Shown piece after piece: positions 26,214-44,806 of a stretch of DNA of 64,000 nt. Under the pieces are notes generated by a model. It was given only the letters and a program-made list of their open reading frames with translations, was not told the DNA's origin and made no database searches. Source of the DNA: Aliidiomarina taiwanensis (GTDB taxonomy: Bacteria; Pseudomonadota; Gammaproteobacteria; Enterobacterales; Alteromonadaceae). How positions within the stretch are numbered: position 1 is the stretch's first letter; the number at the start of each line of letters is the position of its first letter. The stretch covers positions 62,001 through 126,000 of the forward strand of contig NZ_PIPQ01000001.1 of the NCBI RefSeq assembly GCF_003987015.1, in the 5' to 3' direction. The translations under genes and the position numbers were made by a program.

Positions 26214-27590
26214 ATGGGCGAACAAGCTTTCAATACAGACACTATTGTTGCGCAAGCGACACCACCGGGCAAAGGCGGTGTCGGTATTGTGCGTGTAAGC
26301 GGCAGCCAGGCGAAAAATGTTGCCAAGCAAATTCTTGGGCAATGTCCAAAGCCCCGTTATGCACTGTATACCGACTTCAAAGACGCTTCCGGCTTGGTTA
26401 TTGACCAAGGCATCGCTTTGTATTTTGAAGGGCCTAACTCATTTACCGGTGAAGACATACTTGAACTGCAAGGTCACGGTGGCCCTGTGGTACTCGACAT
26501 GCTTATCCGAGCCATTTTGACCCAGCCTAAAGTGCGTTTAGCCCGCCCCGGCGAGTTCAGCGAACGCGCTTTTATGAACGATAAAATTGACTTAACCCAA
26601 GCAGAAGCCATTGCCGACTTAATTGAAACAAACTCAGAACAGGCCGCACGTATGGCGCTGCAAAGTTTACAAGGCAACTTCTCGCACCGCATCGACCAAT
26701 TAGTCGATGCGGTTATTCATTTACGCATGTTCGTCGAAGCAGCCATTGACTTTCCCGATGAAGAAATAGACTTTCTGAGCGACGGCAAAGTGGCCGCCGA
26801 CTTACAAAGCATTATTGATAATTTATTAGCCGTTGAAGCGGAAGCAAAACAAGGCAGCCTTCTGCGTGAAGGCATGCGGGTGGTGATTGCAGGTAAACCC
26901 AATGCCGGTAAGTCGAGCTTATTGAACGCATTAGCAGGCCATGATTCTGCCATTGTTACCGACATAGCAGGCACAACCCGCGACGTACTGCGCGAGCATA
27001 TTCAGATTGATGGTATGCCCTTGCATATTATTGACACAGCCGGCTTACGTGAAAGCCCCGACAAGGTAGAGCAAATTGGTATCGAGCGGGCTTGGGCAGA
27101 AATCGAACAAGCCGATCGGGTGTTATTTATGGTGGACAGCACAGAAACCCATGCTACCCACCCTAAAGACATTATGCCGGAGTTTTATAAACGCCTCCCC
27201 CAGCATATTCCCTTTAGTGTGATCAGAAATAAAGTTGATCTAACCGGCGATGCGCCTGGAATACAAGAAGTAGAGGGTATTCACGTACTTGCACTATCGG
27301 CTTCTGCAGAAGTGGGTTTGCAACACTTACGCGAACATTTAAAAGAATGCATGGGCTTTAACACCAACCTTGAAGGTGGCTTTATGGCACGGCGTCGCCA
27401 CTTAGAAGCCATAGAGCAGGCCAAGCAGCATTTATTTATAGGCCAAGAGCAACTTGAAACCTTTGCCGCTGGCGAAATTCTGGCTGAAGAGCTGCGCTTA
27501 GCCCAGTCACACCTGAATGAAATTACCGGCGAATTCACCAGCGACGACTTGCTGAGTAAAATATTTGGCAGTTTTTGTATCGGGAAGTGA
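26214..27590 (+). CDS. mnmE: tRNA-5-carboxymethylaminomethyluridine GTPase MnmE
   Basis: MnmE works with MnmG to add the carboxymethylaminomethyl group to U34 of certain tRNAs. The 458 residues carry the N-terminal folate-binding domain, a helical domain, and an inserted G domain with [14 protein letters not shown] (G1), DIAGTTRD (G2), DTAGLRE (G3) and RNKVDL (G4). The protein ends in the conserved FCIGK, whose Cys is essential in E. coli. The last 18 bases are the left attachment site of the island that follows, so the present 3' end may have been supplied by the element. Confidence 0.97.
27573..27590 (+). other. attL: left attachment site at the mnmE 3' end
   Basis: TTTTGTATCGGGAAGTGA, the last 18 bases of mnmE, matches 15 of 18 bases of 45424-45441. 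The 3' end of mnmE (trmE) is the known 18-bp target of Salmonella genomic island 1 and related elements. An integrase gene begins about 200 bases further on. Confidence 0.85.
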
Positions 27591-27711
27591 ACCTCATTCT
27601 TAAGTGGTAAAGTCCCGTGAAACCTATCAAAACATATCAAAATAAATTGTTGTTTTGTAAGGACATAAATTACTTTTTCCTCAGAAACCTTTTTCCCGCG
27701 TTTTCTTCTAG

Positions 27712-27792
27712 TTTGCTCCGTTTCACTATAAATTTATCCCGATTTGCTCCAAGGTTAGAATTCGGGAGCAATGGGATCAAAATTGGAGCAAA
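27712..27792. repeat. Four TTTGCTCC/GGAGCAA repeats before the integrase
   Basis: Two direct copies of TTTGCTCC (27712-27719 and 27743-27750) and two inverted copies of GGAGCAA (27765-27771 and 27785-27791) lie in 81 bases ending at the integrase ATG. The inner pair extends to a perfect 10-base inverted repeat, TTTGCTCCAA with TTGGAGCAAA. By position these are candidate arm-type integrase sites or an autoregulatory operator. The role is inferred. Confidence 0.55.
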
Positions 27793-27793
27793 C

Positions 27794-29014
27794 ATGAAGG
27801 TATCTGTTAACAAGCGGAACCCCAACTCGAAGGGGCTACAGCAGCTTCGCCTGGTGTACTACTACGGTGTAGTCGAAGGGGAAGACGGAAAGAAGCGGCC
27901 TAAGCGGGATTACGAGCCTCTTGAGCTGTACGTGTATCACAACCCCAAGACTTAGGCTGAACGGCAACACAACAAGGAAATGATGCGCCAGGCCGAAGCT
28001 GCAAGATCTGCACGCCTTGTTGAATCACATGCCAATAAATTCAAGCTTGAAGATCGAGTGAAACTGGCCTCAAGCTTCTTTGACTACTATGACCAATTAA
28101 CCTCGACCAAAGAGTCTGGAAGCGCTTCTAATTATTCAATCTGGATCTCGGCAGGTAAGCACCTCAGAAACTACCACGGCAGAGCTGAGCTCACCTTTGA
28201 GGAGATTGATAAGACGTTCCTGGAAGGGTTCCGCAAGTACCTACTGGAGGAAAAGCTCACCAAATCGAAAACCCGGCTCGCCAAAAATACTGCATCGAGC
28301 TACTTCAATAAACTTCGGGCTGCTCTGAATGAAGCATATCGAGAGGGCATGATCAGGGACAACCCGGTTCAACGGGTGAAAAGTGTCAAGGCAGAAAACA
28401 CTAAGCGAACCTACCTCTCTCTGGATGAGGTTCGTGCGCTGGCAAAAGCAGAGTGTCGCTACGATGTCCTGAAACGCACTTTTTTGTTCAGTTGCACTAC
28501 CGGTCTCCGCTGGAGTGACATCAATAAACTCACATGGCGTGAAATTGAGGAGTTTGAGCCCGGCCACTATCGAATCATTTTTGACCAGCAAAAGCTCAAA
28601 AACGGTGGAAACTCCCTTGTGTATCTGGACCTTCCAGACTCGGCTGTAAAGCTGTTGGATATAGATCAAAAGGGCGAACCAGACGACCGAGTTTTCGTCG
28701 GCCTCAAATACAATAGCTACTTCAACGTGGCGCTGCTGCAATGGGCAATGAGAGCTGGGATAACAAAACACGTTACTTTCCACGCTGGACGACACACTTT
28801 CGCCGTTGCGCAGCTCAACCGGGGAGTAGACATATACTCACTCTCTAGGCTTCTTGGACACAGTGAATTACGCACTACCGAAATATACGCTGACATTCTT
28901 GAGAGTCGCCGCGTAACGGCCATGAGAAGCTTTCCAGACATCTTCAAAGAGCGTGAAAGTGAGGACAATAGATGCTCCCGCTGCGGGCAGACAGTCCCCA
29001 TGACTATCGCTTAG
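27794..29014 (+). pseudogene. Tyrosine recombinase (island integrase) with in-frame amber codon
   Basis: A phage-type tyrosine recombinase reads in one frame from the ATG at 27794 (MKVSVNKRNPNSKGLQQLRL) to 29014, about 406 codons, except for a TAG at 27953-27955 after codon 53. The upstream part is an arm-binding domain; after the stop come a SAM-like core-binding domain (about 85-190) and a catalytic domain with Arg in TTGLRWSDI, Lys in QQKLKNGG, HAGRHTFA, LLGHSELRTTEIYADI with the nucleophilic Tyr, and a C-terminal CSRCG. The style resembles integrases common in Bacteroidetes elements. A truncated product could start at the ATG at 27980. It lies beside attL, as expected of the island's own integrase. 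Confidence 0.85.
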
Positions 29015-29235
29015 GCGCTTTACGTCCAGGACGGCGAGAGTTTTTCATAAACTGCTCAACGTCGTTCTGCACATCCTTCTGAGATTTGATGCGGTTGGCC
29101 TCAATCCAATCCAGAAGGAGGGAGGTTCACGTTACTGGTGTCATTCGAAGCTGTTCCCGAAACGAAATCAGCCAAGATTTTTTTGATTTCTGCCAATTCA
29201 TTCATCACGCACGATAACTGTTCTGCTCCAGACAT
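29011..29235 (-). pseudogene. Possible frameshifted small ORF after the integrase
   Basis: On minus, an ATG at 29235 starts a 44-codon frame (MSGAEQLSCVMNELAEIKKI...) ending at TGA 29101-29103. The next frame then carries a coherent peptide, LDWIEANRIKSQKDVQNDVE..., to TAA at 29011. Read together they resemble one small helical, charged protein with a single frameshift. There is no clear Shine-Dalgarno, and I do not recognise the family. This is a weak call. Confidence 0.3.
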
Positions 29236-29622
29236 CATTCACCCACATTGTCTTTGATTCGCTTTGATGGGTTTATGATGAAGGAGAGAGATGCGAAACG
29301 ACGGGTCTGCTTTTACCCAATTTGGGCGGTTTGAGCCGAATTGAGAAAATTTTCTGGAAAGTGCCTACGTCAGTCCGACCGACTGACTGTCCAACACGAT
29401 AATTTATCCTTTAAATTCAATTGATTTACTTATAGGTGTGGCACTAGTGACGTGGATAACATCAGTTATGAACAGGGTTATCCACCATGGGAGCGAATTC
29501 GACTTAACGAGAATGCCGCCCATAGGTGCTGTAATTATCATAATTATCGTAATCGAAGTGGACTTGCTAGGGCTTTGAATGAGGAGATGCGAACAAAGAA
29601 GGATTCGCCCCGAGGCTTTTGT
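29236..29622. other. Non-coding stretch with paired DnaA-box-like inverted repeats
   Basis: No convincing gene. GTGGATAAC (29452-29460) and GTTATCCAC (29477-29485) form a perfect 9-bp inverted repeat, each containing TTATCCAC, one base short of a DnaA box. AATTATC-type repeats follow at about 29533-29552. With a RepA-like remnant next to it, this may be a relic of a plasmid origin; that is inference. Confidence 0.4.
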
Positions 29623-30003
29623 TCACTTAGGGGCGATATGAGGATTCGTCTTGGTAATTATCAGTTTATCGCTGTGAAAAAGCGTGCTGTTGAATATCTC
29701 ATAATGGAAAATCGACGCTAATATAGCGGCATTTTCCAGCTTACGACGGAAGTCTCTCCGCTCTTTCGTTTCACTGCTGAACTGAAGCTTCAGGGCATCG
29801 AGGGGGATTTCAATTTGCTTTCTACGCGACATTGAATGGACTCGCCAATTCCACCAACAGTAGAAATCGATGGCGAGTGGGTTTTTAGTCAAAGCTTTGA
29901 TCGCGTGGGCCGAAACTGGCACAGCATTACTAAGAATGCTTTGATAGAACTCTTCATCCAGACGGATTGTTGATGACCAACTCGAATTTTTACCAGGACG
30001 CAT
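29623..30003 (-). CDS. Plasmid RepA-like replication protein, C-terminal part
   Basis: A 126-residue protein whose body (STIRLDEEFYQSIL...PVSAHAIKAL, then SPLAxD-like KNPLAIDFYCWWNW, then IEIPLDALKLQF and RRDFRRKLENA) follows the pattern of the C-terminal domain of plasmid-encoded RepA initiators, including the closing PHIAPK. The N-terminal half expected of a full initiator is missing: the frame is closed by a stop about 40 bases before the ATG. It is therefore probably a remnant. It suggests the island passed through, or captured, a plasmid. Recognition is by eye only. Confidence 0.5.
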   Translation of the reverse strand: MRPGKNSSWSSTIRLDEEFYQSILSNAVPVSAHAIKALTKNPLAIDFYCWWNWRVHSMSRRKQIEIPLDALKLQFSSETKERRDFRRKLENAAILASIFHYEIFNSTLFHSDKLIITKTNPHIAPK

Positions 30004-30074
30004 TGAGATAAGCGCCTTACGGGATACAGACCAAATCTTTCCCTATACTTAGGCCTATCGTTGAAAACTAAACA

Positions 30075-33000
30075 CTAACAAATAATATTAAACCAAGCTT
30101 TCAAAACCCCACGCTCTTCCTCATTAAAATCAACACTAGGAAACGCAATCTGCGCCATCACTTTTCCTGTATCGCCGGCCGTATCATCAGCCACAAAATT
30201 GATAAACGGAAACAGCGAATTGCAATGCATCGCGATGTGAGCCATTGCGGGTTTATGCTTACCTAGCATTCCTTTCAAAGTCTCAAGATCAACCACAGCT
30301 TGAATAATTTCAACGTCGCCGCTTGCCAAAGAATACTTTCGCCACTCGGCCTGGCTAAAATCAACAGTTCTGTTGTGAATGCTAGCCTGACCACTTCCAC
30401 GCACACTCGTTCCTGTCAGAACATGCTTCATGCGCAAATCCTGCTGTCCATTAAATAGCGCATATTCAAGCGCATCGGCAAAGGCTTCAAGCTGCTGTAG
30501 GCAAAGCGTTATTTCCGCCTGTGACAACAAGCCAAGCTTGCCGTCATTCGCAAACAACGGTAGCTCACATACTGCGCTCAAATAAAAATGGCTATTCTGC
30601 GCTTCGTTGTTTAACACGGCCCGCACCAACGGGTAATGCTGGGTCAGCTCAGTAACCAACCTCGGCCAGTTTGGTTCAGCAACCTGCTGCAGTGTGTCTT
30701 TGCTAGCAATAGGTGATGCCAGCCGAACAATATAGGCTGTATCTGGCACCACGGCCGAAAATGCTGCCGAAAAATCAAGCTTCACGAATATGGGTTGGTA
30801 GCGCTCTGTCGTATCATTGGTGGCCGATAATTGTCGCTCTAGTTTATATAGCCACTCAGATTTTTCGTCGGTTGCATGTAAATTTGCAGCGCTTGCTTTT
30901 GTTAATAACTCCTTTAATTGGCTTGTAATATCGGGGCGCGGGTAGGTGTCTTCTGCTTTTTGTTCACTCACGGCGCTATCGCGCAATAGGCCATCAAACG
31001 TCGCCGGATATGGGTCAACAGCATCATGAGGTTCCGACGCATTTGCATCCTTTCTAACAGGCTTATGCAGTAAGTGCTGCCAACTTGCCGTTTCTTCTTG
31101 ATGAATCACGTCATCGGCGTTGTCCTGCAAACATTTGTCCAGCTGATTTTCAACGTCGCGCTTGCGTCGAATAAATGATGCAACTTGGTCTTCGTCAATT
31201 GAGGCGGCTAAAAATGGGTAAAGTATTTTTAACGTGCCTTCGCCTGTTCCCAAACGCCGATTTAACGAGCCATACATGCGGTCAACTCGCCCTACGCGCT
31301 GCTCGTTGTCACCCGCTGAACCAGCTAAGCCGTAATGGTGTACCTGATGGCAGTTTAAATGTAAATTCACGCCCTCTTTGAATACCGACGTTGCAATTAA
31401 AACATGTGGGTAAAATGGGCTATTAAAGCCAAGCTTTAAGCTTTCTCGGGTGCTAGCGGCCGTATCACCGCTAGCAAACCAAACGGGGTTCGTTTGGCTT
31501 TTTAGCTGGGTCCATTCGCGCTTCCAGTCGTCTAATTTATGCCCGACAATTTTTTCGCAAAGCATTTCAAAGGTATTTAACGCAGCTTTAAAGTATTTAA
31601 GCAACAGCGAGTTAGGCAACTTGAGTTTTACGAACTCGCAAAAACCTCGATAGCTGGTTTCCGCGCTTAGATGTGAGCCTGATTCTTGCTTTTCATAGGT
31701 CTTGAACCATGCGTAAACTTCAAGAAATACGGGGCTTGCATATAAAAACCCAGCGCGAATGTAGTTGCTAAAGTTCTCTACTATTTTTGGCGTCTTATCT
31801 TGCCATGTTGCTAATTGTTTTCTCTCAGCGTCGGTCAGCTCTGCGTAAACTAACCCCCAACATGTTGTCAGCTCTGTATTAAAACGGTCTTCTGAATGAT
31901 TTTGCTGCTTGCTCATCTCAACTTCAGAGAGCAAATCAGAGTCTTTGGTTTGTTTGTAGCGCGCGTCTTGTGCTGCACTTTTATAAAGCGCGCGCTTGTT
32001 TGTGTCATCGCTGCGGTAATGGTAAGAGTAGCCCGCTTGTTTGTAATCCGCAGCGGGTTCAAAAAACAACGAATAGATACTTTCATTTTTGATAAATCGA
32101 AGTTTCACATTGGCAGCGTCTGATTGCGAATGTAAATCACGTTTTACAACAAACAATTGTGCGACGGCGGATGCTAATGATTCGTTGCCTTTGGTGGCTT
32201 CTTGGTCGTCGTCGTTTTCGGGGTCAACGTCAAGGTTTTCAGCAATGTCAGCTTTGCCTACTTGTTTGATAATCTCGGAAAATACATCTCGCTTATAATT
32301 CGCCTTCACTAAGTTATCGACCGAGCCGTCGGCCCAACCATGTAACATCAACGTCGCTAATTCAGCATCATAGCGCTCGTTCATACGTTGCGTTAGTTCT
32401 CGCAGCGACGGAATTCGACGCACAAAAATTAGATGTTTTAGGTCTTCAATACTTGGCGTATTTATTAATGCCTCGGCACTCGGCACACACTTATCAACCA
32501 ACGCTCGGTATTTCGGGTGTTTTGGAAACGCCTTAAACTTCTCTCGATAACTTGCCGTTAAGCTTTGCAATAGCTTCGTGTCTAGAGCGCGTGAGAAAGC
32601 TTCTTTGCTTTGTTCGCCGTTTTCTTCAGCGTTAGCCTCTTCTGCCTCTTCATTGATTTCGCCAGTTGCTGGAGAATCAACGCTGGAAGATTTAGCTTGT
32701 TGGTTGTCGGCATCAAGTTTTTCAATATCACGGCCAATTGATTCAAAGCCTTCAAGATATCCATAGGTTAAATGCCGTTTTTCTTTGCTGTGCTCAAGCT
32801 CGCTAACCAGTCGTTTTTGATAAATTGCAAAAAAAGCTTCTGCTTCTGGGTGCGCCGCAAATGTCGCAGGCAGCGCTTGTTCATCTCGGTACTCGTACTT
32901 ACCAAAGTTTTGGGTTTCATCACCCTCTCCAACTGACAGAACGCGTAACCGCCGCAAGCCAAAAATTTGCATTAATGTCTGCGCATCGTTTGCCGCGTTC

Positions 33001-33791
33001 TTATACGGTGGATAATCAGAAGTCACAAAGTAACTCAGAATATTGGCGATATCGGTTTTGTTGGTGTGGTTTGGGGTGGCCGTTAGCAACAAGACTTTTT
33101 GTGCCAGCTGCGAATCATCATTTTGGAAAAATGTCTGTGCAGCTGCAGTACGCTGTGATCCGCCATTTTTGTTCCGTAAATAATGGGCTTCATCAATAAT
33201 GACGAGATCAAAACCTTCGCAACAAAATGGTGCTTGTTTTATCTTGTCATGAAGTTTTTTCGCCTCTGAGGCTGCGCTTACTGCTTTGTCACTCGCGTCT
33301 TTTTGCGATAAATGACTAAACGCGTGAATGGTCACAAAATACATGTGCGCTGTGGCTCGCTGCACCACCGCAGCTAGCTCATCTAAACTTTTAGCTATTT
33401 CCATTCCCTGTACAGGTTTGTCGTTTACGCAGCTTTTTACTTTATGATCAATTTGTTTATAGAGCTTGCGTACAAAGGTTTCGTATTCATTGCGCCACTG
33501 GGTACATAACGTTGTATTTGGCGCGACCACCAATACACGAGCATGTGGCTTTTGTTTCCATAATAATGCAGCTACAGCAAGCGCTTGAAAGGTTTTCCCG
33601 GTGCCAACTTCGTCGGCCAATAAGGCAATATTATGCTTACTGAGCAGGTTCCATAAATACGCCACGCCCTCGGTTTGTTTCGCCGCCATCGAGTCACGCT
33701 TAGCGCTGTCGTATTGCCACTTCTCGTCTTTTGTCGCGTTGAAGTTAATGGCTTCGCTGACAATTTCTGGCGCTATCATTTCCCATACCAT
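30075..33791 (-). CDS. Large DEAH/SNF2-type helicase of a defence-like operon
   Basis: A superfamily 2 helicase of 1238 residues. I choose the ATG at 33791, which overlaps the stop of the PLD gene as TAATG, indicating translational coupling; the open frame extends 38 codons further into that gene. Motif I is DEVGTGKT (about 60-67), motif II IIDEAH (about 198-203), motif III LLTATP (about 236-240), motif V ATSVFKEGVNLH (about 797-808) and motif VI QRVGRVDR (about 831-838). A long acidic insert (NEEAEEANAEENGEQ) and about 400 uncharacterised C-terminal residues surround the motor. The function is probably DNA translocation in phage defence, inferred from context and architecture. Confidence 0.85.
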   Translation of the reverse strand: MVWEMIAPEIVSEAINFNATKDEKWQYDSAKRDSMAAKQTEGVAYLWNLLSKHNIALLADEVGTGKTFQALAVAALLWKQKPHARVLVVAPNTTLCTQWRNEYETFVRKLYKQIDHKVKSCVNDKPVQGMEIAKSLDELAAVVQRATAHMYFVTIHAFSHLSQKDASDKAVSAASEAKKLHDKIKQAPFCCEGFDLVIIDEAHYLRNKNGGSQRTAAAQTFFQNDDSQLAQKVLLLTATPNHTNKTDIANILSYFVTSDYPPYKNAANDAQTLMQIFGLRRLRVLSVGEGDETQNFGKYEYRDEQALPATFAAHPEAEAFFAIYQKRLVSELEHSKEKRHLTYGYLEGFESIGRDIEKLDADNQQAKSSSVDSPATGEINEEAEEANAEENGEQSKEAFSRALDTKLLQSLTASYREKFKAFPKHPKYRALVDKCVPSAEALINTPSIEDLKHLIFVRRIPSLRELTQRMNERYDAELATLMLHGWADGSVDNLVKANYKRDVFSEIIKQVGKADIAENLDVDPENDDDQEATKGNESLASAVAQLFVVKRDLHSQSDAANVKLRFIKNESIYSLFFEPAADYKQAGYSYHYRSDDTNKRALYKSAAQDARYKQTKDSDLLSEVEMSKQQNHSEDRFNTELTTCWGLVYAELTDAERKQLATWQDKTPKIVENFSNYIRAGFLYASPVFLEVYAWFKTYEKQESGSHLSAETSYRGFCEFVKLKLPNSLLLKYFKAALNTFEMLCEKIVGHKLDDWKREWTQLKSQTNPVWFASGDTAASTRESLKLGFNSPFYPHVLIATSVFKEGVNLHLNCHQVHHYGLAGSAGDNEQRVGRVDRMYGSLNRRLGTGEGTLKILYPFLAASIDEDQVASFIRRKRDVENQLDKCLQDNADDVIHQEETASWQHLLHKPVRKDANASEPHDAVDPYPATFDGLLRDSAVSEQKAEDTYPRPDITSQLKELLTKASAANLHATDEKSEWLYKLERQLSATNDTTERYQPIFVKLDFSAAFSAVVPDTAYIVRLASPIASKDTLQQVAEPNWPRLVTELTQHYPLVRAVLNNEAQNSHFYLSAVCELPLFANDGKLGLLSQAEITLCLQQLEAFADALEYALFNGQQDLRMKHVLTGTSVRGSGQASIHNRTVDFSQAEWRKYSLASGDVEIIQAVVDLETLKGMLGKHKPAMAHIAMHCNSLFPFINFVADDTAGDTGKVMAQIAFPSVDFNEEERGVLKAWFNIIC

Positions 33792-35728
33792 TAGCGAGTT
33801 TCCTTCTCGATTGCACGGGCGTAATTCCCCTCTGTGCGTATCCATGAAATAAGTTCCGGCGAAAGTTGTGACGGTTTTTGTTGATTTATATTGAAGCGAG
33901 ACCAATCAAAATTATCGTTTGCTAACTGAGCTCTATATTGCTGGGCTAGCTGCACAAGTTGCTTCACTTCTTCGGCTATAAACCAAGAATAAACGGAGTC
34001 GTCTTGTTGCTCGTTAGCTTTCTCAACCCATTCAAGGAGGCAGCCAGGCATGGATAATAAAATTTGATCGAATTTTTTGAGTTGCCGCTCTTTCTTACGA
34101 GCCGACTTGGGAGTTTGAGCGACTTCCTCTAGCCGCTTGCTGAAGTTTTGACACGCTAAAAAGAGTTTAAAATAACTTGCTGTCGGTGATTCTCGATTAA
34201 CTCCAATTTGCTTATCTTCCCATGATTCTGAATTGTCATCTGGGCTAGCGCTGAATCGATAGACCAGTCTCTGACTGTTTTCATGGTCCATGCTTAAGGC
34301 TGCAGCATCAATAAGGCTAGTTAAATCCTCAAACTTCTGGTTGCGTCGATAATCTTTATTCGTTTCAATAATAAATCCTGAACTTTCAATTTCATCACCT
34401 TTCTTAATGTAAAAGCGGCGATTATTGATAAGTGCCTGTTCGTCATTGACCTTTAAGGTTTGTCCACTTTCGGCAGGTTCAATTGCCACAGGCGATTTTA
34501 CGCCGGGTAATGTTAGTGTGTATTGCTTTACGCAAAGCAAACTGCTCACGTTAAGCTGATATGTTAACTGCCGCCAATCGAGCGTTACTTGTACGTTAAA
34601 AGGCGGTAGAGCTGGTACTTCGAGCTTTTCACGCTCAAGCTCAGAATGGTCGCTAAATTGCGGTTCATCAATAGCTTCACCATACAAACATGGTGCCTCA
34701 GCAGCGGAGAAAATTAACCCCGCTTCTATGTTGATTGAATTGCCACCATCGTTGGAAGAATGGCTAGAATTTCCGGATAGCAAATTACTGCCCGGCTGCG
34801 TGAAATTCCATGAACCTATTGCAATATCCTTTTCTGTGGCCCAGATTTTCGCATGCACCATGGCAAATTCGTCAGCTTCAATTGCCTCTGGGCGTTTGTG
34901 AAAAGCTAATTTTTGAGACTGCAGGTGTTGATTGAGAGCTTCATCCGATACTGACCGAATTGTTTTACCGTTAACAAGGTCTGGCACGATTCTATACGTG
35001 ATCTGACGGTTATTTGTTGCGTTTTCTATTTTCTCGATAAAGCTTGAAATGCTTTTAGAAAAATAAGGGGACCACACAGTAAGTTCATGGGAATCGGCCG
35101 TGATCATGCGATTGATAAAATTCGTATCTGAAAAACTATGATGAAACTCAACTTCTTCAGTTTCGGAGTTGCCTAAATTCGGTAACAGTTTCCAGTCAAA
35201 ATCTTTAACGTTTGCGCTTTCAAAAGTGCCTTCAAAAAACTTGGATATCGATGTGGATAATTTCTTTGAATTAACCGCAATAAACTTAAAAACTTCCCGA
35301 TTCCGACCCCAACCTGAAATAGTTAAATTAGCGCTGCCAGCACCAAGCACCGCCCCGTCTTTGCCTTGAATATAAATAACTTTGGGGTGAAATAAGCTAT
35401 CTTCTGTAAACTGTTTGTTTTTGGGCTCTCCGAGACTCGGCAATACGCCATGCACCGGAATTGACGTGCGCTTCAATCGGCTACCGGCTTCTCCTTCCAA
35501 AAATCGCTTATCGCAGAAAACACGAACATCAACCGTTGACTCAACATAAAGCTGTTGTAACCGCTCGTAATCCATATGCGTTCGCGGTTTATTATTCGCG
35601 TCATCGACAATAATGGGCAGCAAATAGGTTTCGATAAACTCAATATCAATTGTAAAGCTTGTAAGCCATACCTTTTCAACCTTCCCAACTTGCTTAATCG
35701 CTTGTTTGAATGAATCAATCATTTGCAT
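33791..35728 (-). CDS. Phospholipase D-fold protein (putative nuclease) of a defence-like operon
   Basis: A 645-residue protein starting at the ATG at 35728, preceded by GGAGG at ideal spacing; a TTG further upstream is less likely. It has two PLD half-sites: H114-P-K116 with GSANLT (131-136), and H292-A-K294 with GSWNFT (305-310). The Asp of the classical HKD motif is not at its usual spacing in either, as in several PLD-type nucleases. The second half (about 350-645) is not recognised. Its start overlaps the 459-residue gene upstream by 14 bases and its stop overlaps the helicase start, so all three form one operon. Confidence 0.8.
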   Translation of the reverse strand: MQMIDSFKQAIKQVGKVEKVWLTSFTIDIEFIETYLLPIIVDDANNKPRTHMDYERLQQLYVESTVDVRVFCDKRFLEGEAGSRLKRTSIPVHGVLPSLGEPKNKQFTEDSLFHPKVIYIQGKDGAVLGAGSANLTISGWGRNREVFKFIAVNSKKLSTSISKFFEGTFESANVKDFDWKLLPNLGNSETEEVEFHHSFSDTNFINRMITADSHELTVWSPYFSKSISSFIEKIENATNNRQITYRIVPDLVNGKTIRSVSDEALNQHLQSQKLAFHKRPEAIEADEFAMVHAKIWATEKDIAIGSWNFTQPGSNLLSGNSSHSSNDGGNSINIEAGLIFSAAEAPCLYGEAIDEPQFSDHSELEREKLEVPALPPFNVQVTLDWRQLTYQLNVSSLLCVKQYTLTLPGVKSPVAIEPAESGQTLKVNDEQALINNRRFYIKKGDEIESSGFIIETNKDYRRNQKFEDLTSLIDAAALSMDHENSQRLVYRFSASPDDNSESWEDKQIGVNRESPTASYFKLFLACQNFSKRLEEVAQTPKSARKKERQLKKFDQILLSMPGCLLEWVEKANEQQDDSVYSWFIAEEVKQLVQLAQQYRAQLANDNFDWSRFNINQQKPSQLSPELISWIRTEGNYARAIEKETR

Positions 35729-37094
35729 GGTCGTTTCCTCCAAAATAGCCGCGTATTAAGTTATTAAATTGGTGCAAGTAATAGGAATTTACCCATTTGA
35801 GTTCTTTGGCAGAATCAGGAGGGCTTAGTGGTCGTGCATGTAATTTGGTTATGCCATTTCGCAATTCTACCCAAGGTTGCTGCCCTCGCGTGTGCATTAC
35901 GGATTTGTGGTAGCTTATTAGCTCTGCTATTTGCTGCTGCAAGGTGTCACATTGAGCGACACCTGATAATTTTTCGAATCGTTGTCGTGCAGAACCGGTT
36001 AAAACATGTTTGGCTGAATCAGAAATATTCTTATACAGGTCTGCCAATGTTGCGTTGGTCCCGCCATACTTCAGCCACTCACTCTCGATATCTCGCATCG
36101 TTTGAGAATTTTGGCGGCAAATGAGCGTAAACAACAAATTAATACGGGTCAGAAAGGGCTCAACTTGCATGACATGTTCAAGTTTTTCTCTTTCTTCGGC
36201 ATTTTCATCATTGAAGGCCGCGTTAAAAACGTCTTCGGGTTCGATGCCGCCACCAGACTGATTTCTTAAAGCCTTTAATAAAATACCAGCAGCGCCTTGG
36301 TCTAAACCGGTTACTTTAAGCCAATAATCTCGCGTGATTTCACCGACTTTTCCTGATGTCGAAAACGCGACTCTGCACGCATTTTTAAAGTTATCCGGTA
36401 TATCGCTGAACTGAATTTCCAGTGGAGACTTTGAACTCTCAGCGCTTTTTATTAAACTCTTAATGTAAGATACGGCAGCATCAAAGTATGATTGCAAAAT
36501 CGGCTTTTGGGCGAGCAGTAGTCTATATTCATCCCAACGCTGTTTTGAAACATCGTCATGGTTATAATGGTAATACTTATCAAAATAGCCAAGTTCTAAA
36601 AACGGTGTGCGGTAACGCCCGCTGACACCTAAGCCCAACTGACGCACCAGAATTTGGCCTTCTCTGTTGGTGGTAAAAACAAGTTTGGGGTTTTCGTCTT
36701 CCGCATCTAAGATTTTACGACCATTATTACTACCGAGTATTCCCGATGTATCGACATTCTTTTCCTTTGCGGTAAGCATCGAAAATACATAGATATTTTC
36801 TAAATGAAGCAAGCAGGTTTGGGCAAAGCGGGAACTCGTTTTATCACCGACAAAATTTTTGAGATGTTCTGGTATAACAAATGAACTATCCGAAATTAGT
36901 GACTGAACCACCCCATGATGCATCAAATTAACCGTGAAGTTGCGAACGTCGTTCGAAATAGAGTTCACTCGCTTTTCGAATATAGCCTCGCCATAGCTCG
37001 ACCAAATAACTAGCATTCCAAGTGGGTCTATATAAAGTGACGAAGCTATGTCTTTGTTAGCATCGGTAATGATGTCTGCTAATTTAAAATTCAC
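35715..37094 (-). CDS. Unknown protein, first intact gene of the helicase-PLD operon
   Basis: A 459-residue soluble-looking protein that I do not recognise. It starts at a GTG (37094) with AAGGA eight bases before it. No membrane segment, zinc motif or nuclease motif stands out; it is rich in aromatic and charged residues (for example YFDKYYHYNHDD around 175). Its tight coupling to the PLD gene says it belongs to the same system, perhaps as a specificity or regulatory subunit. Function is unknown. Confidence 0.75.
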   Translation of the reverse strand: MNFKLADIITDANKDIASSLYIDPLGMLVIWSSYGEAIFEKRVNSISNDVRNFTVNLMHHGVVQSLISDSSFVIPEHLKNFVGDKTSSRFAQTCLLHLENIYVFSMLTAKEKNVDTSGILGSNNGRKILDAEDENPKLVFTTNREGQILVRQLGLGVSGRYRTPFLELGYFDKYYHYNHDDVSKQRWDEYRLLLAQKPILQSYFDAAVSYIKSLIKSAESSKSPLEIQFSDIPDNFKNACRVAFSTSGKVGEITRDYWLKVTGLDQGAAGILLKALRNQSGGGIEPEDVFNAAFNDENAEEREKLEHVMQVEPFLTRINLLFTLICRQNSQTMRDIESEWLKYGGTNATLADLYKNISDSAKHVLTGSARQRFEKLSGVAQCDTLQQQIAELISYHKSVMHTRGQQPWVELRNGITKLHARPLSPPDSAKELKWVNSYYLHQFNNLIRGYFGGNDHAND

Positions 37095-37108
37095 GGACGT
37101 TTCCTTGT

Positions 37109-37264
37109 CTAGCTGAGTGAGTTCGAGATCTTACTCATCAATAATTCACTAAAATTTTCTGCGTTAATAGGCGTTGCTTGTAATTTGTTCTTCGAATTGT
37201 AAGCCAGTAATTTTGAATTACCTAATTGCAGCGGCTCTTCGTGCTTTGAAACAAAAAGAGGGGG
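37109..37264 (-). pseudogene. C-terminal remnant of a fourth operon gene, cut by an IS3 fragment
   Basis: Upstream of the 459-residue gene, the same strand has an open frame without a start, ending at TAG 37109-37111, 14 bases before the next gene. It reads PLFVSKHEEPLQLGNSKLLA, then YNSKNKLQATPINAENFSEL and a short serine-rich end. The composition and flow are those of a real protein end. Its 5' side runs into the transposase fragment at about 37260, so the rest of the gene seems to have been lost. I do not recognise the family. Confidence 0.5.
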
Positions 37265-37510
37265 TTATGGATTTGTATTCTCGCCGAATCATTGGCTGGT
37301 CTATTAACAAACGTATGACAACTGATCTTGTGTTGCAGTCGGTTAAGCAAGCCTATTGGCTTAGAAAGCATCCAAAAGGTGTTGTTTTCCATAGTGACCG
37401 TGGCTCCCAGTACACCAGTAAAAAGTTAAAAAGTTAAAAAGTTAAAAAGCTCGCTAACTAAGCTAGGTATAAAGCAGTTAGTAGAGCCAGTTACCGCCTT
37501 TAATTAGCAT
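37261..37510 (+). pseudogene. IS3-family transposase (OrfB) fragment
   Basis: The plus strand reads MDLYSRRIIGWSINKRMTTD, then HPKGVVFHSDRGSQYTSKKL, the central part of an IS3 OrfB integrase domain with the second Asp of the DDE triad (HSDRGSQY). Both ends are missing. At 37420-37449 an 8-base unit (AAAAAGTT) is repeated about 3.75 times; with two fewer copies the frame would continue KSSLTKLGIKQLVEPVTAFN. No terminal inverted repeats were found. The rest of the stretch to 37536 holds nothing else I can name. Confidence 0.8.
37420..37449. repeat. 8-bp tandem repeat (AAAAAGTT) in the IS3 fragment
   Basis: Consecutive AAAAAGTT units end in AAAAAGC. Removing two units (16 bases) restores the transposase frame, so this looks like a slippage expansion in a dead gene. 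Confidence 0.7.
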
Positions 37511-37536
37511 AGCTAAAAGTCATACCAGCAGGCTGT

Positions 37537-38454
37537 TTAACTTAATAAATCACTATGAATTTCTTCATAGGAATCTTCAGAGTAGTAACTTGCACGCTGC
37601 TCCTTAACAAGATTTTGTGTACCTGATATTGCTGGAATACTTAGGTCAGGATACCCCGCAGCTTGGCTATCAGGAACAAAAACCGGACGGCCCATTGCAT
37701 AGCTTGCATTAACGGCATGCATAGTGCCGCCATCAATGGTTGTTTCTATGGCAAAAACTGCTGACGCTAACCCTGCTTGAATTCTATCCCGTTTAGCAAA
37801 TAAAGCCGGAATTGAACGAGTGCCCGGCGGATTTTCTGAAACCCAAAGCCCACCATTATCGAGTATTTCATTTGCTAGCTTTCGGTTAACGGCAGGGGAG
37901 ATCGTTGCCAAATCAACCAGCACAGCGATTGTGGGTACGCGAAAGTCTAACGCAGCACGATGTGCAATAGCGTCTATCCCTAGTGCTAAACCACTAATTA
38001 TTGCAAAGCCTTTACTCGCAAACGCTTCAACAGTGCTTTTAGTAAGCTCTTTACCTAATGCGGTGTTATTACGAGTTCCCACGACGGCGATTGCTTTGTT
38101 ACTTTGCAGTAGCTCCACGTTTCCTTTGCAAAAAAGAAATGGCGGTGGCTTAACGACTTCCAGTAAGTGAGAAGGATACTTAGCATCACCACGCATTATT
38201 ACCTTGATACCTTGCAGTCTCCACTCTTCAATTTTTTCAGATATTTGCTTTCTTGCAGACTCAAAATGACCTACCTTTAAAAATTCAACCAATGAAGAAG
38301 GTGTTCTTTTTAATGGCAAATTTTGAGTGCGTACTCCTGCAATATCTTCGAGAGTTTTGAAACCATTTGCCGCTGCAAAAATCAACAGCGAGCTTATCGT
38401 TTCATCACCAACGCCTTTGAGTTCTTTAAGTGCGAGCGCATCAAGTATATTCAT
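37537..38454 (-). CDS. DprA/Smf-like Rossmann-fold (SLOG) protein
   Basis: A DprA-family protein of 305 residues from the ATG at 38454 (MNILDALALKELKGVGDETI); an alternative ATG at 38535 would add 27 residues. An N-terminal helix-hairpin-helix-like segment (about 1-60) precedes the Rossmann core, with IAVVGTRNNTALGKE (GSR of DprA is GTR here), IISGLALGIDAIAHRAAL, SENPPGT, AKRDRIQAGLASAVFAIET (RNRI is RDRI) and GRPVFVPD. It is diverged from housekeeping DprA, which usually sits beside fmt-def. DprA-like proteins recur in defence islands; a role here is inference. It is divergent from the WYL regulator. Confidence 0.8.
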   Translation of the reverse strand: MNILDALALKELKGVGDETISSLLIFAAANGFKTLEDIAGVRTQNLPLKRTPSSLVEFLKVGHFESARKQISEKIEEWRLQGIKVIMRGDAKYPSHLLEVVKPPPFLFCKGNVELLQSNKAIAVVGTRNNTALGKELTKSTVEAFASKGFAIISGLALGIDAIAHRAALDFRVPTIAVLVDLATISPAVNRKLANEILDNGGLWVSENPPGTRSIPALFAKRDRIQAGLASAVFAIETTIDGGTMHAVNASYAMGRPVFVPDSQAAGYPDLSIPAISGTQNLVKEQRASYYSEDSYEEIHSDLLS

Positions 38455-38668
38455 ATCATTCCAATTATATAAAGCTAAAACGTTGTAAGTGCTTCCCAAC
38501 ATTATCCTAAAGTAAGGCGAGTGAGCTTGTATCATAATGCTAAAGCACTACAAACTCTTCATGAAAAGTACTAATTAAAGCTAGGATATAAAATAGCAGC
38601 GACAATCTGTGTCGTATAGGATTGTTAAATTCACTGCATGAATGATAATTTTTAAAGAGAGAGTGATT

Positions 38669-39670
38669 ATGGCTGATTCTTCATTGCGCCTATTGCTAAT
38701 GTTACAGCAGATTCCTAGAGAGCCGCGCTATGTTAGTAGCCAACAACTGCACGCTCGTCTAGCCGATGCAGGCTACAGCGTTAGCTTGCGCACTGTGCAG
38801 CGAGACTTAGTGAAATTATCTAGTCACTTTCCATTGATACAGAGCGAACCAAGCGGGCAAGGAAATACGGGCGTGTCTTGGGCGTTTAGTCAGCATGGAC
38901 AACACATGGCTTTCCCGGGTATGGATGCAGTAACTGCATTAACGGTATCTATGGCGCTAGAGCATTTACAGTCACTGTTACCGCCGCAAGTATTACAGCA
39001 CCTGGAACCTTGGCAGCTGGAAGCCGAAGAACGGCTACAGAAGCTAAACTCAAGCAAGTATCAAAGCTGGATGGATAAAGTACGGGTCTCTCCGCAGCAT
39101 GTCTTGCAAGCACCACAAGTAGATGCAGAAGCAGTAGGGTTGATTTATGAGGCTCTGCTAGAAAATCGTCAGTTTTGTGCCACCTATAAAGGTAAGTCAG
39201 AAAGGGTAATCCACCCATACGGGCTTGTTCAACAAGGGCGCACCTTGTATTTATTATGTCGTTTTTATGACTTTGAAGACGTGCGTATTACAGCGTTGCA
39301 TCGCTTTGAAAAGGTCGAACTACTCGATGAACCAATTCGTCCTTTTCCAGCATTCAATATTGATGACTACCTTAATACTGGTGCAATGCAGTGGGCGTTG
39401 CCAGACCCTAAGCTTATTTCATTAGAGCTTCGTGTGAATCAATGGCTTAAAAACCATCTTGAAGAGTCTCCATTATCGGAACAGCAGCTATTAGTAATCG
39501 ATGACGAGCAGCAAGAGTCTTACTTAGTTAAGGCTGAGATGTTGGATGGTCGACAGCTGCGCCGCTGGTTATTGAGTCTAGGTTCTGATGTGGAAGTAAT
39601 CGCCCCTAAGGGCTTGCGTGATTGGATGGCTAGTATAGTGAAGGCTCAGGCTGATAGGTATTTAGAGTGA
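38669..39670 (+). CDS. WYL-domain transcriptional regulator
   Basis: A 333-residue regulator with an N-terminal winged helix (SSQQLHARLADAGYSVSLRT, VQRDLVKLS) and a WYL-type ligand-sensing domain (about 165-240: ATYKGKSERVIHPYGLVQQG, TLYLLCRFYDFEDVRITALHRF), then a WCX-like C-terminus. I choose the ATG at 38669 (MADSSLRLLLML), with AGAGAG at Shine-Dalgarno distance. WYL regulators commonly control phage-defence loci. The 214-bp divergent gap to the DprA-like gene is where it might act. Confidence 0.85.
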   Translation: MADSSLRLLLMLQQIPREPRYVSSQQLHARLADAGYSVSLRTVQRDLVKLSSHFPLIQSEPSGQGNTGVSWAFSQHGQHMAFPGMDAVTALTVSMALEHLQSLLPPQVLQHLEPWQLEAEERLQKLNSSKYQSWMDKVRVSPQHVLQAPQVDAEAVGLIYEALLENRQFCATYKGKSERVIHPYGLVQQGRTLYLLCRFYDFEDVRITALHRFEKVELLDEPIRPFPAFNIDDYLNTGAMQWALPDPKLISLELRVNQWLKNHLEESPLSEQQLLVIDDEQQESYLVKAEMLDGRQLRRWLLSLGSDVEVIAPKGLRDWMASIVKAQADRYLE

Positions 39671-39710
39671 CAGGTAGGTTGGGTAGGAAGGAAACACTGA
39701 TATGTCGGTA

Positions 39711-40013
39711 CTAATAAAGCCGAGGCCTATTGTTCGGGTTTAGTCTGCCACTACACAAGCTTAATGAGTGACCAAGTGCTAAAACGTCTTCCATTATAGG
39801 TCCTGATAGAGCGTTACTCCCAGCCCAGTCTTGGAGAACTACCATAATATCAGCTTCAATATTGTTTGCGCTCTTGGTGTAAGGGGAAACAAAATCGCAG
39901 TCATAAATGCCGTTGTGGAAGTCGCCAATATTTTTAAAGCCTGCCCGCGTGGTTCGCTGTCTCCTATGCGCGAGCTCTCTTAGTTTTGACTCTTTTATTG
40001 CGAGCGAATCCAT
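39711..40013 (-). CDS. Short protein, perhaps a truncated uracil-DNA-glycosylase-like protein
   Basis: A 100-residue ORF. The stretch DCDFVSPYTKSANNIEADIM followed by VVLQDWAGSNALSGP resembles, from memory, the N-terminal part of a uracil-DNA-glycosylase-superfamily group, which would normally continue well past 100 residues. The last residues (NNRPRLY) then look like a broken end. If so this is a 3'-truncated relic. The similarity is uncertain and no catalytic residue can be confirmed. Confidence 0.35.
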   Translation of the reverse strand: MDSLAIKESKLRELAHRRQRTTRAGFKNIGDFHNGIYDCDFVSPYTKSANNIEADIMVVLQDWAGSNALSGPIMEDVLALGHSLSLCSGRLNPNNRPRLY

Positions 40014-40130
40014 GCCCTTAATCTTCTTAGGTTAGTTATCAAAAACCGAATGAACGCGACACAAATTGTCGTACACTCGACTTAATATCGTAAAAAGTAA
40101 AATATCTTATACAGAAGCAAGGAGCAAACG

Positions 40131-40349
40131 ATGGCTAAGCAGTTACAAATAAAACTCACTCCTGAAGCTACTCAAAAATATTTAAAGCTTTGTGGTGAGC
40201 AGATGGAGGCAGAGATGAATGAGTTTGTGGAGCCGACATTTCCATTAATAAAAATTGAAATGAGCATGTTTGAAAACGAAGTATTCATGGAAGTTGGTAA
40301 TGAGTGGGTTGAGCTGGGCGATTCAGCTGTAGAAATCATTTCGTCTTAG
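40131..40349 (+). CDS. Small acidic protein of unknown function
   Basis: A 72-residue acidic protein (MAKQLQIKLTPEATQKYLKL..., many Glu and Met). It has an excellent Shine-Dalgarno (AAGGAG) before the ATG and is followed 17 bases later by the IS21-split gene, so it heads a small plus-strand operon of unknown genes. I do not recognise it. Confidence 0.6.
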   Translation: MAKQLQIKLTPEATQKYLKLCGEQMEAEMNEFVEPTFPLIKIEMSMFENEVFMEVGNEWVELGDSAVEIISS

Positions 40350-40788
40350 AGCTGGAGTATTAACTAATGAGTCTATTCGATAAGACTGTTGGCTTTTCGC
40401 AACTCAAATCGATGCTCGACAGCATAGGGTTCGAAAGCTTTTATAGGGACCACTTAAGGAGTATGGCTCAGTCTATAAATTATGGCGTCCGAAAAGGGGA
40501 AGTTAACTTTGGTGGCCTGGCCGATGCAGGAGAGCAGTACAACTATAAGCAGGACGAACGGTATACCGTAAGTATCAACTCGAAAGTAAAGCCAGCTAAG
40601 GGTATCGAATTGTTACTTCAGTGTGTTGAGGTTTTTGACTGGGGCGGTGTACAAAAAGGGAACATTATTAATGCGATTAATCTCTACCGTACTGACCGGC
40701 TAGAAGAGTTAATTTTTTCAGCAAAAACTGACTTTGAAAACGATTCAGCGCTACAGTTTTTGCACGTTGACCATCAGTTAGCCATTTG

Positions 40789-40796
40789 GTCCAGTG
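40789..40796. repeat. Target-site duplication, left copy
   Basis: GTCCAGTG borders the left end of the IS21-family element and recurs at 43188-43195. Eight bases is within the usual IS21 range. Confidence 0.85.
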
Positions 40797-40851
40797 TATA
40801 GAGCGTCAACTATCTTGACTGATCAGCGTCAATTAACTTGACGGGTTGTCG

Positions 40852-41610
40852 TCATCCTTCTTCTTTAGTTTTCAGTGATGCTTTCCTCCTGTAGCTTTCA
40901 CCCAAGCACTGGATGATGGTGGCATGATGCACCAGCCTGTCGATGGCTGCGATGGTCATGCTGGAGTCATCGAACAGCGTGTCCCAGTCCTCGAACGACT
41001 GATTTGACGTAATGATCATGCTGCAGCGTTCATACCGGTGAGCGATGAGTTCGAACAAGACACTGGTTTCCTGCTCGGTCTTGCGGATGTAGCCAATGTC
41101 ATCGACGATGAGCACCGCGTACTTATCCAGTTTAAGCAGTGCATACTCAAGCTTAAGCTCTTGTTTTGCTTGCTGCAGATGCTGCACCAATGCGGTTGCG
41201 GAGCTGAACTTCACACGGATGCCAGCTTCGATTAGGCCGTAACCTATGCTGCTGGCGATGTGGGTTTTACCTACGCCACTGGCACCGAACAAAAGGATAT
41301 TAGCGCCTTGTTTCACCCAGCTGGGCCGGTCTATCAAGTCATGAACCTGCGCTTTGTTAACGCCTTCTATGGCGTTGAAGTTAAAGCCACTAAGGTGCTT
41401 GCCTGCCGGCAGTTTTGACTCACGCAGATGCCGTTGCAGCCTCTTGTCTTCGCGGCTGGCGAGTTCGGCACTGCATAACTCAGCGAGGTATTGTTGTGGT
41501 GACCATTGTTCATGGATGGCTTTTTCGGCCATGGTTTGCCAGAGCTCACGTATTGAACCGAGGCGTAGCTGCTTAAGCATTAATGGCAAGGAGGCGGTGG
41601 CTTTATCCAT
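40852..41610 (-). CDS. istB: IS21-family transposition helper ATPase
   Basis: IstB is the AAA+ ATPase that assists the IstA transposase in target choice. The 252 residues contain Walker A LLFGASGVGKTHIASSIG and Walker B AVLIVDDIGYIRKT, then IITSNQSFEDWDTLFDD, the sensor region. Its ATG overlaps the istA stop by eight bases, the usual coupling. It looks intact. Confidence 0.95.
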   Translation of the reverse strand: MDKATASLPLMLKQLRLGSIRELWQTMAEKAIHEQWSPQQYLAELCSAELASREDKRLQRHLRESKLPAGKHLSGFNFNAIEGVNKAQVHDLIDRPSWVKQGANILLFGASGVGKTHIASSIGYGLIEAGIRVKFSSATALVQHLQQAKQELKLEYALLKLDKYAVLIVDDIGYIRKTEQETSVLFELIAHRYERCSMIITSNQSFEDWDTLFDDSSMTIAAIDRLVHHATIIQCLGESYRRKASLKTKEEG

Positions 41611-43096
41611 GATTGCCCCCGTGCAGTAATGACTGATACTGACTCAGTGCATGCTGATGAACGGTCATCTTGGGTATGGCTGCTGGCGGGTAGGCAAATC
41701 GCTCTTCGCAGTCATAGATGCTCGGTACGCGACCGTGTTCTATTTCGTTCACAACGAACTCGCCCAGTCGTTGCTCATGGCCGGTCTTGCTGGCTAAGTG
41801 AAGCAAGCGAACGATGTAATAGCAGGCCTTATCTGCCATCATCGTATCGTTGACGTGTGACCAGATGTGCTTGTAATTGTCGCTGGGTAACAACTCATCA
41901 CGCCACTGTGAGTGGCGGAACGCTCTTGGTTTTTTCACCAGGGCCTCGATGACGTGCTGGTAATTGACGCTGCGCACGCGCTTGGAGCCCTGCGCATAGA
42001 CTCGTGGCAATGTCTCAGTAAGGACGGTACCCAGATAAAGCTCCAGGCGGCTATCATACAGCCTAACCAGCAAGCGGCTTCCAACCAGTCGGGATGGTAC
42101 TGTATAAGTGACTCGTTTCAAGGCGATGGTACTGGTGCGGCTGACTCGTAGGTAATGTTCCGTGTAATTGACGCTGGTGTGCACAGGAAGCGGCTGTAAT
42201 TGTCGCTGTTCTTGGGCTAACTTATCAGCAACCCGGCGATTACGCCGTTCAACAATGCTTTGCACGAACGCCTCATAATCACTTCTTGAGGTAAAGTCAT
42301 AGCTACCACGTATTCTTAACGCTTGCTCCAGCTGGGCTTTAATGTGACGATTCGGTGACTCGATAGCCCCATTTTCTTGGGCAACTCCACGATTGTTTCG
42401 GGTGGCTTTAAAGCCGTAATGCTTCATCAGTTCGGTAAATCGCTCAGTGAAGTCGTCCTGCTCGGTACGGTTTTTATAAGCTGCACTTAAGCTGTCGGTG
42501 CGGATTTCAGTCGGTACGCCACCTGCTGCAATCAACGCATTCTGCAGGCCATCAGAGAAGGCAGCAAAGCTTTCACCACCATAAATTACCTGAGCAAACG
42601 CCCAGCCACACGCTGGCAACCTAAAGTGGAACAACTGATGCTGAAGCACTTCACCGAGGATGCTGACCGGATATTGGACTCTCGTGAAGTCGGCGATCCC
42701 CAATCTGCCTGGCTCATGATGTTGAACAAAGACGACATCGCTTGAATCAGCGTTAAGATGCCGCCACTGCTTGATTCTACGCTCCAGTGTACGTCTAGAC
42801 GAGGGGTTAAATTTATCTTGATGGTGTTCGCATAAGTGGTCGTAAATACCGACCGGCGAGATGTCACTATCTTGCTCAAGCAACGGGAGTACGACGCTGT
42901 CCCAAATTGATTCCAGAGGGTCAGTGCGCGTTCGCCAGTTTCGTTGGCCGCGTTTAGGTTGCAGTGCTTGCTTTTCGATGCGATAGCCAGAGCTCTCGGA
43001 GATACCAGCCTTAGCCGCTGATACCTTTTGACTGTAGTCCTTCCTAAGTTTCATATATAGATTAACCTGTTGATCTGTAACTTGCTTTCCCGACAC
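41603..43096 (-). CDS. istA: IS21-family transposase
   Basis: IstA is a DDE transposase. The 497 residues start at a GTG (MSGKQVTDQQVNLYMKLRKD) with GGAGG upstream, have an N-terminal helix-turn-helix, and an rve catalytic core with Asp in GRLGIADFTRV, Asp in IRTDSLSAAYKN and Glu in QENGAIESPNRHIKAQLE, followed by a basic C-terminal domain. It appears intact and the element could still be active. Confidence 0.95.
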   Translation of the reverse strand: MSGKQVTDQQVNLYMKLRKDYSQKVSAAKAGISESSGYRIEKQALQPKRGQRNWRTRTDPLESIWDSVVLPLLEQDSDISPVGIYDHLCEHHQDKFNPSSRRTLERRIKQWRHLNADSSDVVFVQHHEPGRLGIADFTRVQYPVSILGEVLQHQLFHFRLPACGWAFAQVIYGGESFAAFSDGLQNALIAAGGVPTEIRTDSLSAAYKNRTEQDDFTERFTELMKHYGFKATRNNRGVAQENGAIESPNRHIKAQLEQALRIRGSYDFTSRSDYEAFVQSIVERRNRRVADKLAQEQRQLQPLPVHTSVNYTEHYLRVSRTSTIALKRVTYTVPSRLVGSRLLVRLYDSRLELYLGTVLTETLPRVYAQGSKRVRSVNYQHVIEALVKKPRAFRHSQWRDELLPSDNYKHIWSHVNDTMMADKACYYIVRLLHLASKTGHEQRLGEFVVNEIEHGRVPSIYDCEERFAYPPAAIPKMTVHQHALSQYQSLLHGGNHG

Positions 43097-43187
43097 AGCA
43101 TGACCTCCGTTTTGCTGTATCGAACCCTATCAGATCAACCGGTCAAGATAATTGTCGTGGACCGGTCAGGTTAATTGTCGCTTAATA

Positions 43188-43195
43188 GTCCAGTG
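43188..43195. repeat. Target-site duplication, right copy
   Basis: GTCCAGTG, identical to 40789-40796, directly follows the right end of the IS21-family element. Confidence 0.85.
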
Positions 43196-44792: not shown

Positions 44793-44806
44793 AACTATAA
44801 CCTCCT

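Follow-up and report, generated by a model that had tools for sequence, protein, structure and literature searches.

A stretch of 64,000 nt from Aliidiomarina taiwanensis (the window; contig NZ_PIPQ01000001.1, positions 62,001 to 126,000) carries three minus-strand genes, here called A, B and C, which, judged by their matches to family models, are a member of PDC-M27, a candidate anti-phage system in PADLOC-DB. In PADLOC-DB 2.0.0, the 2023 version, PDC-M27 is represented by the models PDLC04551-04556. A matches PDLC04552 (PDC-M27A) with E 4.7e-165 over residues 4-454 of 459, B matches PDLC04553 (PDC-M27B) with E 2.7e-199 over residues 6-641, and C matches PDLC04554 (PDC-M27C) with E 0 and 1896 bits over residues 37-1276; the residues of B and C are numbered here from the TTG open reading frame (ORF). 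All three matches are full length, the genes are adjacent, and no difference from PDC-M27 was found. The database holds both long and short models for C, and the window represents a member with the long form.

A preliminary description of this region, made from the sequence alone, had presented the trio as a new system, with an unrecognised first protein and an uncharacterised helicase C-terminus. These points have to be withdrawn: the three proteins match PDC-M27A, B and C end to end, A included over its full length, and the helicase C-terminus is covered by PDLC04554 (1217 positions) and present in three of the 24 aligned C proteins. The direct match of all three proteins to a named system removes the novelty; however, the name is that of a candidate and not of a proven system, and we found no experimental test of PDC-M27 in the literature searched for that name. 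PMC12988326 credits the PDC names to a guilt-by-embedding screen, citing a 2024 preprint by Payne. We infer anti-phage defense by the trio from homology and neighborhood. Because the trio is already catalogued, our claim to discovery is modest; what we add is the catalytic assignment for B, the distinction of long and short forms of C, a weak but testable link to Azaca, and the likely ends of the island that carries the genes. A database label thereby becomes a molecule that can be tested: the operon is intact, catalytic residues are identified in B and C, A can be modelled with confidence, and the trio may be kin to Azaca.

The trio is conserved as a unit

Inspection of the junctions places the overlap of A and B at 14 bases and that of B and C at one base, within TAATG. 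A purine-rich stretch suited as a ribosome-binding site precedes A and B each, and all three genes are free of in-frame stops (Table 1). The ORFs and junctions confirm the preliminary description in its three intact, overlapping minus-strand genes, in all their sizes and in both overlaps, and the overlaps are also grounds for its proposal that the genes are co-transcribed. The region it delimited ends at 37264, about 170 bases upstream of A. Overall, its interpretation is partly supported.

A search with A found the protein in two of 58 relatives and in two of 398 phylum genomes; each time, these two were the window's own genome and G053 (L and G numbers denote other loci and genomes). Three plasmid records also matched, the third of which (H3) lies outside the locus set. 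Among 84,980 species genomes, of which the stretches matching two peptide patterns were examined, A occurs at 29 or more loci. These 29 collection loci, two plasmids and G053 make up 32 other loci, and with the window a set of 33 (window, L003-L005, L007-L035). With the two patterns used, no phage-borne copy was found among viral contigs. Among the hosts are Pseudomonas, Vibrio, Photobacterium, Marinomonas, Novosphingobium, Massilia, Herbaspirillum and Pandoraea and, with divergent members, Chitinophaga and Pedobacter.

A, B and C stand in this order on one strand at 25 of the 32 other loci. This is a count of records and not of independent events, since the set includes near relatives (L008/L009/L012, L021/L023, L025/L026 and L010/L011/L013). 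Four further loci (L015, L018, L024 and L032) are truncated by a contig boundary and two are broken: in L029 A and B are in pieces and the contig stops before C, and in L031 A is truncated and no B or C was found. In L033 B and C are intact and an insertion sequence, presumably of the IS5 type, interrupts A. The breakpoint near residue 165 of A that L031 and L033 share was judged a coincidence, one being a truncation and the other an insertion. Conserved co-occurrence across genomes, which the preliminary description had proposed as a check on the system, is what these 25 loci display.

The pairwise identities of A, B and C correlate with r 0.974-0.983 across 23 loci, a value reached by none of 2000 permutations, although shared host descent would account for part of this correlation. 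For the correlation, and for the motif counts in C given below, each locus was used once; alignment A3 contained L008 twice. Because the proteins match family models over their full length, recur in the same order, and diverge in a correlated manner, we regard the association as more than chance, and on these comparisons the trio is a real unit. A divergent A-B-C set of 379, 660 and 1020 aa is found in L035 (8640-19850); its B was missed by phmmer with the window's B and recovered by PADLOC.

Proteins B and C retain catalytic motifs

Residues 1-367 of the 645 in B are predicted to form a double phospholipase D (PLD) fold, which is closest to that of Tdp1; residues 368-645 carry no assignment. 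The catalytic motifs are H114-K116-N134 and H292-K294-N308, in the HKN form, and both HxK..GSxN motifs are kept in all 24 B proteins. With two HxK...N motifs within this fold, B has the features of the Tdp1-like double PLD-fold phosphodiesterases, and it is a putative DNA phosphodiesterase. It did not qualify as a DrmC-type PLD protein (32.3 bits to DISARM_DrmC_I in NCBIfam versus a curated cut-off of 133). After PDC-M27B, its next PADLOC matches are ZacB (30.0 bits, E 6e-8, partial) and DrmC (23.4 bits); hhalign gave 13-25% for B and ZacB. The B of L034 scores about equally with DpdK (32.7 bits) and ZacB (33.3 bits).

C is an ATPase of the RapA/SNF2 type in helicase superfamily 2 (SF2). Its motifs are Walker A DEVGTGKT at 60, DEAH at 200, TATP at 237, FVRR at 456 and EQRVGRVDR at 830, each kept in 24 of 24 C proteins when DESH or SATP is also allowed. 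The nearest solved protein is RapA (E 6e-13). Pfam places ResIII/SNF2 and Helicase_C in C and PLDc_2 in B, which bears out the pairing of a helicase with a PLD-fold protein in the preliminary description. After PDC-M27C, the next PADLOC matches of C are ZacC (81.8 bits), DpdE (60.8) and DrmD (59.7). The match to ZacC has E 1.1e-23 with a best stretch of 65 residues, and hhalign gives 98% for the pair over the first RecA domain only. In NCBIfam the best match of C is DpdE, with 85.2 bits versus a cut-off of 500. The window's C has a C-terminal extension of 309 residues, which is also found in L007 (312 residues, 29% identity) and L034 (274 residues, 24%); the remaining 21 of the 24 aligned C proteins lack it and have 3-29 residues in its place.

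Protein A is predicted to be helical and may be related to ZacA

The structure model of A is mostly helical, with a predicted local distance difference test score (pLDDT) of 84.1. A Pfam scan of A matched nothing and comparison of the model with known folds gave no convincing match; winged-helix proteins recur among the weak fold matches, at about residues 296-437. The conserved motifs are DPLGxxVIW, SISNDVRN, LVRQ..LGVSGRYKTP and RGQSPW. In PADLOC, PDC-M27A matched all 26 A members scanned, and the other matches were weak (SspF in two members, PDC-M41A in one and JetC in one). For the window's A the next family after PDC-M27A is a chance-level match, and ZacA is not matched by it in PADLOC. 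SspF was rejected as a relative, with two of 26 members matching at a best E of 7.4e-4; a profile of two SspF proteins, run against 2022 ORFs at E 10, had no A protein among the matches listed. On these searches, A is without a clear relative beyond PDC-M27.

A profile of A aligned with a profile of 16 ZacA sequences gave a score of 23.9, colinear over 17-328 and 28-269, respectively. Column-shuffled ZacA scored 15.9 +- 2.7 (maximum 28.0), with three of 200 shuffles reaching 23.9, and reversed ZacA scored 16.9. The divergent A of L035 scored 26.6 over 30 columns against ZacA, a value that none of 200 shuffles attained (14.1 +- 2.1, maximum 21.8). The common core of A and ZacA reads DxLGxxxIx(7)L[FI]PxxST. 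However, the hhalign probabilities for A and ZacA were 0.1-5.3% throughout, and a hidden Markov model (HMM) of ZacA run against the 2022 ORFs found no A protein below E 3.3. Because these probabilities are low and the plain HMM search is not significant, we grade the kinship of A and ZacA as suggestive only.

Comparison with named defense systems

Azaca, to which the preliminary description had already likened the trio, is the nearest named PADLOC system. ZacA, ZacB and ZacC are an unknown protein, a PLD protein and an SF2 helicase, in the same order as A, B and C, and ZacB and ZacC are the best named PADLOC matches for B and C. The similarity of ZacA to A is weak; ordinary searches do not link these two proteins, and C and ZacC are significantly similar over the helicase core only. 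At L039-L041 the gene with a ZacA match lies ahead of two genes on the same strand, for a PLD-motif protein and a helicase, whose positions and motifs mark them as putative ZacB and ZacC. The Azaca genes of L039 (1-11132) adjoin proteins that, judged by eye, look DrmA- and DrmB-like.

The statement in the preliminary description that the trio is not plain DISARM holds: no Pfam match to DUF1998 (DrmB) was found among the 17 window proteins scanned, and no methyltransferase among the island proteins scanned. The one methyltransferase-like protein among the 17 lies just outside the island. DISARM, too, contains a helicase and a PLD protein, but the bit scores of the trio to DISARM models (C to DrmD, B to DrmC) are about 30 times below those to PDC-M27. 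Hachiman (HamAB) is similar as a working model, that of a helicase gating a nuclease; it consists of two genes, with a nuclease of another fold, and no Ham model was found for C among the 25 of 52 PADLOC matches listed. PMC12839542 describes BREX-related Type-2 systems in which an HKD-type nuclease fused to a Swi2/Snf2 helicase is the effector. The fusion is accompanied there by DUF499, DUF3780 and a methyltransferase, whereas the trio has separate genes and includes A.

Gene neighborhoods at other loci

Type I restriction genes occur within 10 kb upstream of A at no fewer than five of the 33 loci (L019, L022, L024, L027 and L034). In L019 120 bases separate the end of HsdS from A and a gene weakly resembling HsdR lies downstream of C, L022 also has Septu PtuA/PtuB, and L024 has its own full-length HsdR. 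As in the window, WYL proteins are encoded a short distance upstream of A in L003 and L005; in L023 a weaker match lies on the downstream side. Both the type I and the WYL genes were sought by phmmer with a small set of selected queries, so their counts are lower bounds. Single cases in the downstream flanks are a CBASS cyclase, a reverse-transcriptase defense gene and Gabija-type genes. The scans took in 95 of the 99 proteins upstream and 71 of the 72 downstream (five very long ones were left out), with the near copies L009, L012, L023 and L026 dropped. Taken together, the defense genes around A, B and C, counted without a background set, support a defense role, but they are evidence of the kind that also lies behind the PDC-M27 label. 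L035 is flanked by a helical-REase (restriction endonuclease), a type II methyltransferase and a DpdB-like protein, and its locus is possibly a larger composite system. A tubulin/FtsZ-family protein (L003, 4045-5232) is encoded near the trio on a Rhodoferax plasmid.

Proposed function and alternative explanations

Computation shows the motifs and the conservation of the unit and predicts the folds of A and B; the formation of a complex, DNA as its substrate, a gating step and a role in defense are what we infer. We think it probable that the trio is an anti-phage system: C, acting with A, would recognize or remodel foreign DNA and then permit B to cut it. A and C would form the recognition and motor part. 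C would be an ATP-driven translocase of the RapA/SNF2 type that moves along or remodels double-stranded DNA, and A, mainly helical and with a possible winged-helix end, would bind C, B or DNA and thus confer specificity. Either invading DNA or a phage-made replication structure would be the trigger. The complex would then license B, a Tdp1-like PLD phosphodiesterase, which would cut DNA without a metal via a phosphohistidine intermediate. Because the island proteins scanned include no companion methyltransferase, the cell's own DNA is probably spared by gating of B through C and A, as in Hachiman, and not by base modification.

The trio could also be a deep branch of Azaca, with A a diverged ZacA, B a ZacB and C a ZacC, an assignment that we hold with somewhat less than even confidence. 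The components are of the same kinds in the same order, ZacB and ZacC are the best PADLOC matches after PDC-M27 in the window, L034 and L035, and A shares the DxLG motif with ZacA and exceeds most or, in L035, all shuffled profiles. However, the hhalign and HMM results for A do not follow suit, C and ZacC align over the first RecA domain only, DpdK ties ZacB in L034, DpdE is the best NCBIfam match of C, and many defense systems pair an SNF2 helicase with a PLD protein. A different question is whether the defense would kill the cell. A complex that senses DNA damage or stalled phage replication, with B destroying cellular DNA as well and so stopping the cell, would amount to abortive infection. 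The lack of a self-marking methyltransferase among the island proteins scanned is in line with this, as is Hachiman, a helicase-gated nuclease that responds to DNA damage according to PMC12278908; but the sequence fits selective restriction equally well and type I genes at five of 33 loci are compatible with either, and we lean against the abortive alternative.

The closeness of the B core to Tdp1 and its HKN rather than HKD motifs would fit DNA repair, adduct removal or island maintenance, with B freeing protein-linked DNA ends opened by C. The fold is, however, general among PLD proteins, the genes are patchy in occurrence (two of 58 relatives and two of 398 phylum genomes, with the window's own genome counted in both) and their homes are plasmids, an island and restriction loci, which makes this explanation quite unlikely. 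That B and C replace or assist HsdR as accessories of type I restriction appears highly improbable: type I genes precede A in five loci and an HsdR-like gene lies behind C in L019, but with the queries used no type I gene was found in 28 of 33 loci, the window among them, and L024 has an HsdR of its own. PDC-M27 and Azaca might form two branches of one wider defense class with three parts: a recognition protein bearing the DxLG motif, an HKN phosphodiesterase like Tdp1, and a motor of the RapA/SNF2 type. The phosphodiesterase would then act on special phage structures exposed by the motor, such as protein-linked or stalled DNA ends, and not as an ordinary restriction nuclease; we offer this as speculation that is unlikely to hold. 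If protective, the trio would be a second helicase-PLD system, thinly but broadly distributed (Pseudomonadota, Bacteroidota), for which a modification partner was looked for on the island and not found; experiments could then address how systems of this type avoid attacking their own DNA.

The trio lies in a mobile island at the end of mnmE

The preliminary description had placed the trio in a mobile island with WYL, DprA-like and toxin-antitoxin genes. The Pfam and PADLOC scans recover these neighbors; the mobile island is confirmed as well, and its likely ends could be located. The gene mnmE (26214-27590) ends in FCIGK*, and a second copy of the sequence that encodes this end delimits a putative island of 17.9 kb (27573-45441) in the 3' end of mnmE (Table 1). 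In 22 of 100 shuffles, two or more matches with at most three mismatches arise as well, which makes the count by itself weak evidence; compared with the SGI1-type site, the right copy shows only one mismatch. Given the stop in the integrase gene, the island may no longer be self-mobile.

Table 1. Positions in the window of the trio, the putative island ends and neighboring genes
Feature	Positions	Strand	Remarks
Gene A	35715-37094	minus	459 aa; GTG start downstream of AAGGAAACGTCC; PDC-M27A
Gene B	33791-35728	minus	645 aa; ATG start downstream of GGAGGAAACGACC; PDC-M27B
Gene C	30075-33791	minus	1238 aa; ATG within TAATG; PDC-M27C
Left attachment copy	27573-27590	plus	TTTTGTATCGGGAAGTGA; last 18 bases of mnmE; encodes FCIGK*
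Right attachment copy	45424-45441	plus	TTCTGTATCGGTAAGTAA; encodes FCIGK*; 15 of 18 bases equal the left copy
Tyrosine integrase	27617-29014	plus	PF13102 and PF00589; in-frame stop at 27953-27955
Transposase remnant with rve domain	37174-37437	plus	directly upstream of A; presumably IS3-type
DprA-family protein	37537-38535	minus	ShosA match, E 1.5e-66; island neighbor, not part of the trio
WYL-domain regulator	38642-39670	plus	island neighbor
HigB-like toxin and helix-turn-helix antitoxin (HigBA-like)	44472-45100		
Methyltransferase-like protein	45472-46143		PF10294; only one among the 17 proteins scanned; just outside the island

Among the matches listed for 15 other genomes of the genus, a related integrase lies directly behind mnmE in G014 and G005. 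G008 carries, directly behind mnmE, a stretch with 76% identity to the HigBA-like pair, and G013 and G004 have a counterpart of the chromosomal gene at window position 48290 about 1.1 kb behind it. Integrase or island-like genes thus follow mnmE in three or more of the 15 genomes. These findings suggest that the 3' end of mnmE is a hot spot for insertion and that the trio is carried as mobile cargo. The methyltransferase-like gene beyond the right end was considered as a marker of the empty site, but was found in two of 16 genomes, one of them the window's own, and mnmE was used instead.

The island also contains an IS21-type pair (IstB-like ATPase and transposase, 40852-43096), near which three small proteins (40367-40798, 43219-43587 and 43858-44316) gave no Pfam match at E 0.01. 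A remnant at 29623-30003, between the integrase and C, matches the C-terminal part of plasmid RepA with E 3e-9.

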